Translations under genes and position numbers: made by a program
The notes under the pieces: model-generated
Database searches by the model: none
What the model was told of the DNA's origin: nothing
The model's input: the letters and a program-made list of their open reading frames with translations, nothing else
Assembly: GCF_900104695.1 (NCBI RefSeq)
Contig: NZ_FNSW01000001.1
Coordinates: forward strand, 3,038,001 to 3,102,000
Reading direction: 5' to 3'
Length of the DNA stretch: 64,000 nucleotides
Source: Paenibacillus sp. GP183
GTDB taxonomy: Bacteria; Bacillota; Bacilli; Paenibacillales; NBRC-103111
Shown here: positions 23,393-31,254 of the stretch, in pieces
How the letters are laid out: every line of letters starts with the position of its first letter
Numbering within the stretch: the stretch's first letter is position 1

Positions 23393-25336
23393 ATGCTTTT
23401 GCAAGTATCCAACGTGTCCAAAGGATATGGGGTTCGAACGATACTTTCCCAAATAACCCTGCAGATCGAGGATCGTGAGAAAATTGGTCTCGTCGGTGTG
23501 AACGGGGCGGGTAAATCCACGCTTTTGCAAATCATTGCCGGCGAGCTTTCCTATGACAGCGGGAACCTGTTCAAGGCCAAGGAAACCAAGATCGGATATT
23601 TACGCCAAAACAGCGGGTTGAACACGGATAAATCCATTTGGGACGAGCTGCTCAGCGTATTCACCTCTCTACTGGACACGGAAAAAGAGCTGCGAGAGCT
23701 GGAAATGCTTATGGCCGATCCCAAGCTCATTGAGGATGAGAAATTGTACGAATCGACAATGAACCGATATGCTGTCAAGTCGGAATGGTTTCGAGAGCAT
23801 GGCGGGTATGAAATTGAAGCGCGTATTCGCGGGATTTTGCATGGAATGGGCTTTGGCCAATTCTCCCCAAGCACACCCGTGAACACACTCAGCGGCGGAC
23901 AGAAAACCAGGCTTGCATTGGCTAAAATGCTGTTGGAAGAGCCGGACCTGCTCATGCTGGATGAGCCAACCAACCATCTGGATATCCCCACCCTTACCTG
24001 GCTGGAAAGCTACCTGCGCAGTTATCCGGGCGCGATTCTTGTCGTATCGCATGACCGCTATTTTCTGGATGCGCTGGTCACTTCCATTTATGAGATTGAA
24101 CGGAACTCCTCACGCCGATATACGGGTAATTATTCCCGCTTTATAGAGATTAAAGAAGCCGAGTTTGAAGCGCAGATGAAGCAATTTGAAAAACAGCAGG
24201 ATGAGATAGCGAAGCTGGAGGAGTTTGTACAGCGCAATATCGTGCGTGCCTCTACGACCAAACGGGCGCAAAGCCGCCGCAAGACGCTGGAAAAGATGGA
24301 CCGTCTGGATAAGCCGCTCGGCGATTTGAAGCGCGCTTCCTTCTCCTTTGAGATTGAGCAGCAAACGGGCAAGGAAGTTCTGCAGGTCGAGCAACTGGCG
24401 CTCTCCTATGAGGGCCAGAAACGGCTGCTCGAAGACGTATCCTTTCAATTAAAGCGAGGTGAAACCGCAGCGCTGATCGGACCTAACGGTGTCGGGAAAT
24501 CGACGCTGCTCAAAACACTAATCGGACAGCATAAGCAGGACCGGGGCAGTTACAAGTGGGGCGCGAATGTGAAGATCGGCTACTACGATCAGGAGCAAAC
24601 CGGGCTGAACCCCGCTAACAGCGTGCTGGATGAGGTTTGGAACCAGTATCCGACTTTGGAGGAAGCGCGCGTTCGAACCGTTCTCGGCAATTTCTTGTTC
24701 AGCGGCGAGGATGTGTTCAAGAAAGTAGCGGCACTCAGCGGCGGGGAGAAAGCCAGAGTGTCTCTCGCCAAGCTGATGCTGCTAAACGCAAACGTACTGA
24801 TTCTCGACGAGCCGACGAACCATCTGGATCTGTACAGCAAAGAAGTTCTGGAATCCGCGCTCATGGACTATGAAGGAACTCTGCTGTTCATCTCGCATGA
24901 CCGATACTTTCTGAATAAAATGGCGGAAAGCATGCTCGAGCTGACACCGTATGGCATAACCGGCTATCTGGGGAATTATGACGATTACGTGGACAAGAAA
25001 GCCGAGCTTGCGGAGATCGAGGCAGCCCGCCTTGCAAAGGAAGCGGCGAAGAAAGCGGTCGGTTCGCATGGCGCGCAAGCAAGCGCCTCTGCAACAGGCG
25101 GGGCAAACGCCGGCAAGGACGCCAAGCGCGAAGAGCGCAGCCGCCAGCGGAAGCTGGAGCAGCTGGAGCTGGACATCGCCCGGCTGGAAGACGAAGTGGC
25201 CGCCCTCGAGGCGGAACTGGCCGATCCGGCCGTGTACAATAACTATGTGCTCGTCCAGGAGAAAACGACGGCCGCCGAGCACAAAAAGACCGAGCTGCAG
25301 GGCTATTACGAGGAGTGGGAAGCCCTCCTGTCTTGA
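23393..25336 (+). CDS. ABC-F family ATPase (Uup/YdiF type)
   Basis: A 647-residue soluble ABC-F protein with two nucleotide-binding domains and no membrane domain; such proteins act on the ribosome. Domain 1 has Walker A GVNGAGKST, signature LSGGQKTRLALAKML and Walker B LLMLDEPTNHLD. A charged linker follows (KQFEKQQDEIAKLEEFVQRN). Domain 2 has GPNGVGKST, LSGGEKARVSLAKLM and LILDEPTNHLD. An Ala-rich stretch leads to a C-terminal coiled coil (REERSRQRKLEQLELDIARL), as in Uup and YdiF. The ATG at 23393 follows GAGGGAGG. It matches the place of ydiF in B. subtilis. Antibiotic protection cannot be inferred from sequence alone. Confidence 0.94.
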   Translation: MLLQVSNVSKGYGVRTILSQITLQIEDREKIGLVGVNGAGKSTLLQIIAGELSYDSGNLFKAKETKIGYLRQNSGLNTDKSIWDELLSVFTSLLDTEKELRELEMLMADPKLIEDEKLYESTMNRYAVKSEWFREHGGYEIEARIRGILHGMGFGQFSPSTPVNTLSGGQKTRLALAKMLLEEPDLLMLDEPTNHLDIPTLTWLESYLRSYPGAILVVSHDRYFLDALVTSIYEIERNSSRRYTGNYSRFIEIKEAEFEAQMKQFEKQQDEIAKLEEFVQRNIVRASTTKRAQSRRKTLEKMDRLDKPLGDLKRASFSFEIEQQTGKEVLQVEQLALSYEGQKRLLEDVSFQLKRGETAALIGPNGVGKSTLLKTLIGQHKQDRGSYKWGANVKIGYYDQEQTGLNPANSVLDEVWNQYPTLEEARVRTVLGNFLFSGEDVFKKVAALSGGEKARVSLAKLMLLNANVLILDEPTNHLDLYSKEVLESALMDYEGTLLFISHDRYFLNKMAESMLELTPYGITGYLGNYDDYVDKKAELAEIEAARLAKEAAKKAVGSHGAQASASATGGANAGKDAKREERSRQRKLEQLELDIARLEDEVAALEAELADPAVYNNYVLVQEKTTAAEHKKTELQGYYEEWEALLS

Positions 25337-25351
25337 AGCTGCAGCAGCTCA

Positions 25352-25397
25352 CACAGCAAAGCCCCCGTATCTTGTTGGTACGGGGGCTTTGGCTGTG
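25352..25397 (+). terminator. ABC-F terminator hairpin
   Basis: AAAGCCCCCGTA, nine bases, TACGGGGGCTTT is a perfect 12-pair stem, extended by CACAGC/GCTGTG around a bulge. The T-run is short. Confidence 0.65.
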
Positions 25398-25404
25398 TGG
25401 TTGT

Positions 25405-25582
25405 GGTGCAAACATGCACCTAATTCAAGGTCGAACTGCAGAGTTGCTGGAATAAGGTGCAGAAACGCACCTAGGTCCGGCTGCTTTAGAAGCTTGAACC
25501 AAATATGGTGCAGAAATGCACCTGGCTCCAGCTACTTTAGAAGCTTGATCGAAATATGGTGCAGAAATGCACCTGGTTCCAG
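25405..25582. repeat. 51-base tandem repeats carrying a small palindrome
   Basis: Four diverged units with period about 51 (starting near 25405, 25456, 25507, 25558). Each begins with a palindrome of the form AGGTGCAGAAATGCACCT and most continue with TTTAGAAGCTTGA. No open frame runs through them. They belong to a wider group of intergenic palindromes in this window. Confidence 0.75.
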
Positions 25583-25594
25583 TGAGTTACATTA

Positions 25595-25675
25595 GGCAAC
25601 AGGATGAGATGCATTACCTGCATCTAAAATTGCCAACAAGCCTGCTATCTATAGAACCAAATGTAAATCCTACAT
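25595..25675 (+). repeat. 81-base direct repeat, copy A
   Basis: Starts GGCAACAGGATGAGATGCAT and ends GTAAATCCTACAT. It is repeated at 25845-25924 with few differences. It includes the palindrome AGATGCATTACCTGCATCT. Confidence 0.8.
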
Positions 25676-25719
25676 CCCAAGTAGCCAATCTTCCTTAATT
25701 TCCAACGATTTCGGAAATT

Positions 25720-25796
25720 TAGATGTAGGTTTTGCATCTCAGCAGCACATTTACAGGTCAAATCAGGAAACTAGATGTAGGTTTTGCATCTCAGCA
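25720..25796 (+). repeat. paired 25-base direct repeat with a palindrome
   Basis: TAGATGTAGGTTTTGCATCT followed by CAGCA occurs at 25720-25744 and 25772-25796, period 52. AGATG and CATCT arms surround a T-rich centre. Confidence 0.75.
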
Positions 25797-25844
25797 TCCT
25801 TGTACAGCCGAATTTGGGTTGTTTGTGAGAGAGACATGCATGGG

Positions 25845-25924
25845 GGCAACAGGATGAAATGCAATACCTGCATCTAAATTGCCAACATGCCTGCTTTCTA
25901 TAGAACCAAATGTAAATCCTACAT
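25845..25924 (+). repeat. 80-base direct repeat, copy B
   Basis: Second copy of the repeat at 25595-25675, one base shorter and with scattered substitutions. Bases 25925-26160 contain a run of CCA triplets and A/T-rich hairpins but no gene that I can support. Confidence 0.8.
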
Positions 25925-26167
25925 AATTTGGACCGACTGTTGTTCATAAATAAATGTCTAGTCAGCACGAAATAGCCGCTTTTCTCGAATGACTGCCCAC
26001 CACCACCACCACCGTGGTCTTTCGAGTCGCTTTTTCAAAGTGAAAAGCCTAAAAAGCTTTTTCTGAGATATCTACAATTCGACAATGCGCATGATTCTGT
26101 CGAGAATCAAGACTCCCCACTAGACAGGTACATAACAAACTTTAACAATCACCTCTTGACATCGAAC

Positions 26168-26286
26168 TTATACACACTTTCCACAAAACCATGAAAAAGT
26201 TATCCTTTTTCATAGTTATTTACAATCCCTTCATACACATGCTTACAGCAAATCTTATCCACAATATCCACAGGGGGTGTGCATAA
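26168..26286. promoter_or_regulatory. DnaA-box cluster
   Basis: Within 119 bases there are three exact DnaA nonamers of the form TTATNCACA: TTATACACA at 26168-26176, TTATCCACA at 26255-26263, and TTATGCACA on the minus strand at 26278-26286. One-mismatch versions are TCATACACA (26231-26239), ATATCCACA (26264-26272) and TTATTTACA (26216-26224), and a weaker CTTTCCACA is at 26177-26185. A hairpin lies in the middle. There is no dnaA or dnaN nearby, so it is not oriC. In B. subtilis a stable DnaA-binding cluster is known beside gcp (tsaD), next to ydiF, and here the cluster lies between the ydiF-like and tsaD regions. Confidence 0.8.
26191..26213. other. hairpin inside the DnaA-box cluster
   Basis: ATGAAAAAG, TTATC, CTTTTTCAT is a perfect nine-pair stem. 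It could serve as a weak terminator for leuA on the minus strand, or be a structural part of the DnaA-binding region. Confidence 0.5.
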
Positions 26287-26317
26287 GTTGCATCAGTTAC
26301 TCACATCTCAATTTTCT

Positions 26318-27868
26318 TTACGAGGTTGCCGATTTTGTAAGAACGGCTGTCTTTTGCACTCTGACGGCTTGGTTGCATGCGGACACGAAGGCTTTAGCCA
26401 CAGCTAACAGCACATCTTGATCAATGCTGGAGTTTTTATACATTTGTCCGTTGACGGTGATGGTGACCTCTGCTTCACCGGTTGCTTTTTCCCCAGTTGA
26501 TAAAGATTGCAGCTCCATGTCCGAGAATTCCACTGGCATCGGAATGGCCTGCTTCAAGCTGTTGACAATTGCTTCTATCGGACCATCCCCCGTTGCGGAG
26601 TAAATGTGCTCCTCGCCGGTTTGATTGTTGCGGATCGTTACGGATGCCATCCTGCTGCGATCGCTGCTGCTCACTACTTGCATTTGAACAAGGGTGTAAG
26701 CTTCTTTTTGTCCATCTGCGGTAGACCCGACAAGCTCCATAAGCTGATCATCGGTTACGACCTTTTGCTCATCGGCCTTTGCCTTGAATCGAATGTACAG
26801 TTCTTCAAGCTCTTCCGTATTTAGATCTATGCCAAACTGGGTGACCCTATGCTTCAATGCATGTCGGCCGGAGTGCTTGCCCAAAATGATCATGGAACGG
26901 GGAATGCCCAGTTTTTCGGGATCCATAATTTCGTAGGTGTTTCGATTTTTCAGTAAACCGTCTTGGTGGATACCCGCTTCGTGTTGAAAAGCATTACGTC
27001 CCACAATGGGCTTGTTAAACGCGATTGGAAAATGCATGATTCTGCTGATCATTCGCGAAGTGTTGAAAATCTCCTGAGTTACAATGCCCGTTTCCACACC
27101 CATGGTTTCCTTGCGGGTTTCAATAGCCATGACCAGTTCCTCCAGCGAGCAATTCCCCGCTCTTTCCCCAACACCGTTGACTGTAACCTCTACATGGGTA
27201 ACGCCGGCAGCAATCGCCGACAGACTATTGGCAACCGCCAGCCCCAAATCATTATGGCAATGCGCACTGTATTCGACATTCTCACCACCACGAACGCCTT
27301 CTCGAACTCTGCGGAACATCCTGCCATATTCCTCCGGCATCGCATATCCGACTGTATCGGGAATGTTCAAGATGGTTGCGCCCTCGGCAATAACGGCTTC
27401 CAGCACTTCAAACAAAAACTCTTCTCCGGTTCGTGTTGCATCCATCGGCGAAAATTCAATTCGATCGACGCGGCTTTTGGCGTAGGCGACCATGGTTCTT
27501 GCCATTTCAACGACTTGCTGACGGGACTTGCGCAGTTGAAAATCAAGATGAATATCCGAGGAAGAGAGGAACAAATGCAGACGGCGCTGTGCTGCATCCT
27601 GTGTCGCTCTAACTGCTGCGTCAATGTCCGCTTTGATCGATCTGGCGAAGCCGCAAATCTCAACGGTTTGAAGCTCTCTGGAAATTTGCTGAACCGCATG
27701 AAAATCTCCAGGACTCGAGATTGGAAATCCCGGCTCTATCGTATCCACACCGAGCCTCGCAAGCTGCTTGGCAATGCGAATCTTTTCTTCCGGATTGAGC
27801 GATGCTCCCGGTGCCTGTTCTCCATCCCTGAGCGTCGTATCAAATATGCGAATGCGTTTGTTTTCCAT
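26318..27868 (-). CDS. leuA: 2-isopropylmalate synthase
   Basis: A 516-residue LeuA that condenses acetyl-CoA with 2-oxoisovalerate, the first committed step of leucine synthesis. The HMGL-like barrel starts IRIFDTTLRDGEQAPGASLN, with the metal-binding HCHNDLGLAVANSL; the C-terminal leucine-binding regulatory domain (about residues 385-510) is complete, so feedback inhibition is expected. GGAGG lies nine bases before the ATG at 27868; a TTG two codons upstream is less likely. Other leu/ilv genes are not adjacent; it stands alone behind two T-box leaders. In B. subtilis leuA belongs to the ilv-leu operon elsewhere, so its presence between ydiF-like and tsaD genes is a lineage-specific placement. 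Confidence 0.97.
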   Translation of the reverse strand: MENKRIRIFDTTLRDGEQAPGASLNPEEKIRIAKQLARLGVDTIEPGFPISSPGDFHAVQQISRELQTVEICGFARSIKADIDAAVRATQDAAQRRLHLFLSSSDIHLDFQLRKSRQQVVEMARTMVAYAKSRVDRIEFSPMDATRTGEEFLFEVLEAVIAEGATILNIPDTVGYAMPEEYGRMFRRVREGVRGGENVEYSAHCHNDLGLAVANSLSAIAAGVTHVEVTVNGVGERAGNCSLEELVMAIETRKETMGVETGIVTQEIFNTSRMISRIMHFPIAFNKPIVGRNAFQHEAGIHQDGLLKNRNTYEIMDPEKLGIPRSMIILGKHSGRHALKHRVTQFGIDLNTEELEELYIRFKAKADEQKVVTDDQLMELVGSTADGQKEAYTLVQMQVVSSSDRSRMASVTIRNNQTGEEHIYSATGDGPIEAIVNSLKQAIPMPVEFSDMELQSLSTGEKATGEAEVTITVNGQMYKNSSIDQDVLLAVAKAFVSACNQAVRVQKTAVLTKSATS

Positions 27869-27902
27869 GTTCAATTTCCTCCTCTATAGTGGTTTAAAAT
27901 AT

Positions 27903-30138: not shown

Positions 30139-31254
30139 CTACCACTGCTCCAAATCGAGCTGTGCCTCTGCTTTTAAATCAAGCGCGGCGTACTCCCGCT
30201 TGTCCCATTTCAGAAATGCAGCTGCGCCAATCATAGCTGCATTATCTGTGCATAGGCTCAGCGGGGGCAGCAGCAAGGGCACCTGCAGCTCGGCGCAGCG
30301 CTCCGCGAGCTTGCTGCGCAACCCCCGATTGGCCGCGACACCGCCGGCCAAGAGCAGCTGCTTCGCTCCGTATTCACGGACGGCGCGGCTGGCTTTCTCG
30401 ACAAGAACCTCGGTTACGGATTCTTGAAAGCCTTTGGCGATTTGCGCGGTTTGCACGGCCTCACCGCGCATTTTGGCCTGATTCACTACGTTCAGTACAG
30501 CGGATTTTAATCCGCTGAAGCTGAAGTCGTAGGAATCAGGCTCGAGCCAGGCACGCGGCATGGTCACCGCGTGCTCGGCTTCGTGGGCGAGCCGATCCAT
30601 GTGCGGGCCGCCCGGGTAGGGAAGGTGCATCGCCCGTGCCACCTTGTCGTAAGCCTCTCCGGCAGCGTCGTCGCGGGTGCGGCCGATAATATGGAAGCGG
30701 CCCGGGGCTTCCATGTGGATCAGTTCCGTATGACCGCCCGATACAACCAAGGCGATCAACGGATATTCCAAATCATGCGTCAGCTGATTGGCATAAATAT
30801 GCCCGGCAATGTGGTGCACGCCGATCAGCGGCAGTCCCAGTGCACTGGCCAGTGCCTTGCCGGCCATAACCCCAACCAAAAGAGAGCCCACCAATCCCGG
30901 TCCCTGAGTGACGGCTATCGCTGATAATTGCTGGAGCGAAACCTGTGCCTGATCCACAGCCTCTTCAAGGATCCAGGTTATGGACTCCACATGCTTACGC
31001 GAAGCAATCTCCGGAACGACACCTCCAAAGCGCTGATGGGTCTCAATTTGGCTGGAAACCACGTTGGACCGAATAATGCGGCCATTTTCAACAATGGCCA
31101 CAGAGGTATCATCACAGCTTGTCTCAATAGCGAGTATATACACAGGCTCGTCCTGACTATCCTCATTCCCGTTCTTAGCGGGCTCGTCACGTCTATCCTT
31201 ACTCCTGTTCCTAACAGGCTCGTCCTGCCTGGTATCATTACGCTCATTCTTCAT
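30139..31254 (-). CDS. tsaD: tRNA t6A threonylcarbamoyltransferase TsaD
   Basis: TsaD (Kae1/Gcp), which transfers threonylcarbamoyl to adenosine 37 of ANN-decoding tRNAs together with TsaB and TsaE. The ASKHA core is complete: [15 protein letters not shown], the metal ligands in [21 protein letters not shown], and SFSGLKSAV. From the ATG at 31254 the protein has 371 residues, with a 37-residue Asp/Arg/Asn-rich extension coded by tandem repeats. A GTG at 31143, with AGGA seven bases upstream, gives a 334-residue protein of normal length, and the ATG has almost no ribosome site, so the real start may be the GTG. Confidence 0.96.
31144..31242 (-). repeat. tandem repeat at the 5-prime end of tsaD
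   Basis: Units of about 36-39 bases beginning GATAG or GATACC and containing GACGAGCC occur about three times. They code for RQDEPV, RRDEPA and SQDEPV segments. Two units contain small palindromes with different but paired arms (CCTGTT-AGG-AACAGG and CCCG-CTAAGAA-CGGG). Confidence 0.7.

Follow-up and report, generated by a model that had tools for sequence, protein, structure and literature searches.

The off-origin DnaA clusters of Bacillus subtilis are usually viewed as largely redundant sinks. One of them, the gcp-ydiF cluster, is region 4 among the non-origin DnaA-binding regions of this species, and has a Kd of 0.15 uM and a 16-fold ATP preference at 55 nM (PMC4447404). PMC5295017 and PMC13220808 report that deletion of six non-origin clusters leads to early initiation and that restoring one of them brings partial relief; Okumura et al. 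2012 (as cited in PMC5295017) very probably included the gcp-ydiF cluster among the six that they deleted. The datA locus of E. coli requires IHF and promotes ATP hydrolysis (PMC5295017), and B. subtilis has neither IHF, Hda, datA nor DARS (PMC13220808). The locus described here bears on the question of how initiation is kept in check in Gram-positive bacteria, which do so in the absence of datA, DARS and Hda.

We analyzed a window of 64,000 nucleotides in which an array of DnaA boxes lies downstream of both tsaD (gcp) and a YdiF-like ABC-F gene. This is also the arrangement in B. subtilis, whose site was taken from PMC4447404. Both arrays are oriC-proximal, at 628 kb in the 4.2 Mb chromosome of B. 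subtilis and at 504 kb in the genome of the window. They differ in that leuA and a small hydrolase-like ORF separate tsaD from the array in the window, in that they occupy opposite chromosome arms, and in that fewer boxes are intact in the window (three exact boxes versus 10 B. subtilis sites predicted by position matrix). The array also resembles E. coli datA, which lowers initiation from an off-origin group of DnaA boxes several hundred kb away from oriC, but the two are not homologous by location. With DARS1 and DARS2 it shares the form of a short ordered box array outside oriC, although DARS reactivate DnaA.

In our reading, to which we give a probability of roughly three in four, the window array would be the local copy of an ancient off-origin DnaA-box array and the counterpart of the gcp-ydiF cluster; by cooperative binding of DnaA it would hold initiation back. 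DnaA occupancy, its cooperativity and the effect on initiation are what we infer from the B. subtilis data.

DnaA boxes in the window

The array and its neighbors comprise the following features, with offsets counted from the anchor box of the conserved array.

23396..25336, + strand: ABC-F ATPase gene (YdiF-like), 3' end towards the cluster
26091..26111: predicted places of two distal boxes, from offsets 175 and 187 in relatives; empty in the window
26168..26176, + strand: exact DnaA box TTATACACA, conserved offset 110
26177..26185, + strand: degenerate box CTTTCCACA, two mismatches, conserved offset 101; most relatives have a full or one-mismatch box here
26191..26205, - strand: conserved mid-array element, consensus G(A/G)ATAAcTTTTTca, window form GGATAACTTTTTCAT; in about 50 of 75 family members
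26191..26213: hairpin ATGAAAAAG-TTATC-CTTTTTCAT, z -6.0; left arm not kept in relatives
26216..26224, + strand: one-mismatch box TTATTTACA, offset not conserved
26231..26239, + strand: one-mismatch box TCATACACA, offset not conserved
26255..26263, + strand: exact DnaA box TTATCCACA, conserved offset 23; in tandem (9 bp) with the box at 26264
26264..26272, + strand: one-mismatch box ATATCCACA, conserved offset 14 from the anchor
26278..26286, - strand: exact DnaA box TTATGCACA, the anchor (offset 0); closest to the leuA 3' end
26297..26305, + strand: one-mismatch box TTACTCACA, aligned with a conserved box ahead of the anchor
26318..27874, - strand: leuA (2-isopropylmalate synthase), 3' end towards the cluster; between tsaD and the array
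30139..31254, - strand: tsaD (gcp), 3' end towards the cluster, beyond leuA

The sequence-only reading had counted three exact and at least three one-mismatch boxes in 119 bases, and this count holds: exact boxes (TTATNCACA) start at 26168, 26255 and 26278 within 26168-26286 and one-mismatch boxes at 26216, 26231 and 26264, a fourth one-mismatch box lying outside at 26297. A comparison with shuffled intergenic DNA had been set beforehand as one test able to overturn that reading, and the observed density is far above it. The intergenic region 25337-26317 (981 bp, from the ABC-F stop to the leuA stop) has a shuffled mean of 0.07 exact boxes; none of 5,000 dinucleotide shuffles placed three within 119 bp, and a single one placed two. 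When one mismatch is allowed, seven boxes fall within 149 bp, a number reached by none of 600 shuffles, the best of which had four. The whole genome (5.83 Mb) holds 249 exact boxes against 137 matches to a reversed control pattern, and if these 249 were spread at random about 0.003 such triplets would be expected genome-wide. Only at four sites of the genome do 250 bp hold three or more exact boxes, the window cluster and the dnaA-adjacent cluster being two of them.

The boxes are thus packed within a few hundred base pairs above chance, if more weakly than in most relatives. In the window copy, boxes remain at offsets 0, 14, 23 and 110, the one at 101 carries two mismatches, and those at 175 and 187 are missing; with three exact boxes where relatives typically have about five, it is among the weakest. 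It is a partly eroded copy, and its affinity may be lower because of this degeneracy. The hairpin noticed in the middle of the cluster does exist in the window strand, but does not belong to the conserved element: a matching left arm with at least 7 of 9 pairs was found in 0 of 50 relatives, and we rejected it as a part of the array.

The array lies between the 3' ends of tsaD and of the ABC-F gene, the latter assigned as YdiF-like by position and family, without a tree. The interval is shared by leuA and by a small ORF on the opposite strand, labeled by eye as alpha/beta-hydrolase-like, for which an NCBIfam search gave no match. As had been stated from the sequence, neither dnaA nor dnaN is found near the cluster, dnaA being about 504 kb away, so that the gene context is not that of oriC. 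This weighs on the idea that the array is a relic or secondary replication origin, which we hold to be very unlikely. The number of boxes and their tandem pairs are indeed origin-like, and the dnaA-adjacent cluster has just a few more exact boxes. However, dnaA, dnaN and other origin genes are missing from the neighborhood, a separate dnaA-linked cluster is present, and the B. subtilis counterpart is listed as a non-origin DnaA-binding region (PMC4447404).

Location across the class Bacilli

The position proposed from the sequence as conserved with B. subtilis proved to be so well beyond the genus. In the window's own family (f1), tsaD is present in 102 of 105 genomes, and 80 tsaD loci were scanned for boxes; three or more exact boxes per 250 bp lie between tsaD and ABC-F in 51 of the 54 loci that carry both genes, the exceptions being two loci with two boxes and one complete loss. 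The loss is in a 2.4 Mb genome (L086), whose tsaD-ABC-F gap is 28 bp. In the sister family (f2) the array, again with at least three exact boxes, is present in 10 of 10 loci. Absence from close relatives with the same gene order, the other outcome that could have told against the sequence-only reading, is accordingly confined to rare cases. Among the loci with a species name are those of Paenibacillus species and of Sediminibacillus halophilus.

That the cluster had stayed in place despite leuA was also borne out. In genera without leuA here (e.g. L053, L055, L089, L092, L096) it still lies between tsaD and ABC-F, and where leuA is present the inspected loci have it on the side of leuA towards ABC-F. 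The genes tsaD and ABC-F are separated in genera g18 and g21; in one complete genome (G069) tsaD lies 632 kb to the left and the ABC-F side 625 kb to the right of dnaA. Because these matching distances fall on opposite arms, the split apparently fits an inversion around the origin. In the split genomes the cluster is retained at the ABC-F/leuA side in 18 of 18 informative loci, with the caveats that L110 belongs to g9, in which just 22 kb separate the genes, and that L113 and L119 stop at contig ends; the tsaD side has no cluster. The tsaD contigs of g18 and g21 (L072-L078, L082, L088, L090, L091) end a few hundred bp past tsaD, which suggests a repeated element, e.g. an rRNA operon, at the inversion breakpoint.

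The class-wide search covered 201 genomes and took loci from 31 further families. The 30 other Bacilli families are represented by 66 loci; three or more exact boxes occur in 43 of these, and two or more in 54. The array was found in 20 of these 30 families and, counting the own and sister families, in 22 of 32 at the threshold of at least three exact boxes, so that the same location is continuous through intermediate lineages. A gapped-pattern search added two families with a box pair downstream of tsaD (G215, G196), and detected no tandem pair by tsaD in the tested genomes of f26, f5, f18, f21, f25, f34 and f15. The array is also missing in f16 (4 of 4 loci) and f31, and since some lineages (f16, f31, L086 and others) do without it, it is not indispensable. 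Outside the class, the few Clostridia tsaD loci used as outgroup (L015, L016, L017 and L022, 17-21 kb; L014, 5 kb) contain 0 exact boxes.

The real motif is positive in 129 of 177 loci, a total that includes uninformative contig ends, while the best of 60 permuted motifs reached 15 loci (TATCNACAT, effectively the box shifted by one base) and the next 1, with a median of 0 (scores below the top two are 0 where printed). In 1.74 Mb of flanking DNA outside the tsaD/ABC-F interval there are eight clusters. Six of them represent a single second cluster, conserved in g21. It has three exact boxes directly upstream of ABC-F, with its own fixed spacing of 12 and 78-79 bp, at the following sites.

L108:2372-2470
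L109:15728-15826
L115:2239-2337
L116:15984-16082
L118:15688-15787
L119:2429-2527

The genes around the array are less constant than the array itself. The flank on the ABC-F side varies (an unknown secreted protein, an amylase, an FBPase) while the array stays. In many g16 genomes, and in the window's congener, a secreted-looking protein of ~780-820 aa without a Pfam match (L026:6784-9240, L044:6557-8995) starts ~70-210 bp past the array; the window itself does not have it. This turnover matters for the proposal that the array controls transcription of an adjacent gene via DnaA, which several B. subtilis DnaA sites at promoters (PMC4447404) and the fact that the next ORF on the ABC-F side points away from the array in about half of the loci would favor. 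Yet in the window both leuA and ABC-F point their 3' ends at the array, 57 of 132 scored loci have convergent flanking genes, and the gene pointing away belongs to different families in different genera. Since neighbors turn over while the array stays, we regard a transcriptional role as improbable; regulation of a conserved neighbor gene was downgraded because the neighbors differ between genera.

Geometry of the array and its possible mode of action

In the own and sister families the arrays share offsets 0, 14 and 23, followed by a tandem pair with boxes at +9, +21, +74 and +86. Among 79 arrays anchored on a + box with a - box 23 bp on, a - box lies at +14 in 67. When 81 arrays are anchored on the second tandem pair, for which the +9 box is present by definition, boxes lie at +21 in 57, at +73/74 in 57 and at +85/86 in 55. 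Box order, orientation and spacing are retained while neighbor genes turn over, and in the family alignment of 75 loci the box columns are conserved and most spacers have diverged, with the mid-array element as the one non-box stretch kept. Elsewhere in the class, same-strand spacings of 9, 12, 21/22, 31, 42/43, 52-54, 63/64 and 73-75 recur, near multiples of 10.5 bp (R 0.52, mean phase 0.6 bp). In the own and sister families the phasing is weak (R 0.24), so we rejected a strict helical phasing of all arrays and do not claim it for the window.

These data leave next to no room for a chance or compositional artefact, or for unconstrained ancestral sequence that has merely hitch-hiked. Intergenic DNA is A+T-rich and close relatives share sequence by descent, but shuffles and permuted motifs fail to match the observed array, boxes are kept where most spacers have diverged (75 loci), and conservation extends to other orders and families. 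Presence in more than 20 families, survival through gene insertion and inversion, and base-exact spacing in two families argue that the cluster is under selection as a structure.

As to what is selected, the same initiation-restraining role as in B. subtilis is the most economical reading because the location corresponds. The array would be a high-affinity docking site near oriC, on whose tightly spaced tandem boxes ATP-DnaA would assemble cooperatively; doubled soon after initiation, it would draw free DnaA away from oriC and thereby restrain re-initiation. The constraint on spacing exceeds the needs of a simple sink; affinity alone and a datA-like activity are both candidates. It is possible, though we do not consider it probable, that an ordered ATP-DnaA complex on this fixed geometry alters the nucleotide state or the partners of DnaA, as E. 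coli datA and DARS do, and is more than a passive sink. Spacing and orientation are base-exact across genera when a pure sink needs number only, the non-box element G(A/G)ATAAcTTTTTca is kept, and the B. subtilis site prefers the ATP form (PMC4447404). Against this, B. subtilis is without the IHF, Hda, datA and DARS of that comparison (PMC13220808), and tight spacing may serve cooperative affinity only. Only tentatively, then, would we extend the restraint of initiation to a class-wide, ordered control element of Bacilli that acts on DnaA state or assembly beyond titration, in a location selected near but off oriC on either arm. The array permits a direct test of spacing versus box number. We found no report of the class-wide conservation and fixed geometry in the literature consulted; earlier reports of conservation within Bacillus may exist.

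Chromosomal position and other clusters of the genome

The window cluster (C1:3064168-3064286) is oriC-proximal, ~504 kb from dnaA (C1:3568092), or ~9% of the chromosome contig. Across 51 chromosomes, with lengths rounded for a few genomes, the cluster or locus lies at a median of 12% of chromosome length from dnaA, and below 25% in 49; it is on the right arm in most, and on the left in the window's genus and its neighbors. This proximity may simply reflect where tsaD lies, and we take it as supporting evidence only.

As for the other sites of the genome, the dnaA-adjacent cluster (C1:3567703-3567985) has five exact boxes. With many boxes and tandem pairs, the window array is like a bacterial oriC, from which it differs in lacking a dnaA/dnaN context and in coexisting with this dnaA-linked cluster. 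An off-origin cluster of four exact boxes (C1:4744615-4744713; L214:5116-5214) lies between an IscA/ErpA-like and a thioredoxin-reductase-like (YumC-like) gene and adjoins an NADH-dehydrogenase-like gene, a neighborhood that presumably resembles yutM/yumC/yutJ of B. subtilis. It is possibly a second position conserved with that species, in which DnaA binds at yuzB-yutJ (PMC4447404). Another off-origin cluster, with three exact boxes (C1:3684338-3684402; L213:3839-3903), lies between fliS/fliT-like genes and hpf-secA, ~116 kb from dnaA, and directly precedes a cold-shock-protein-like ORF.
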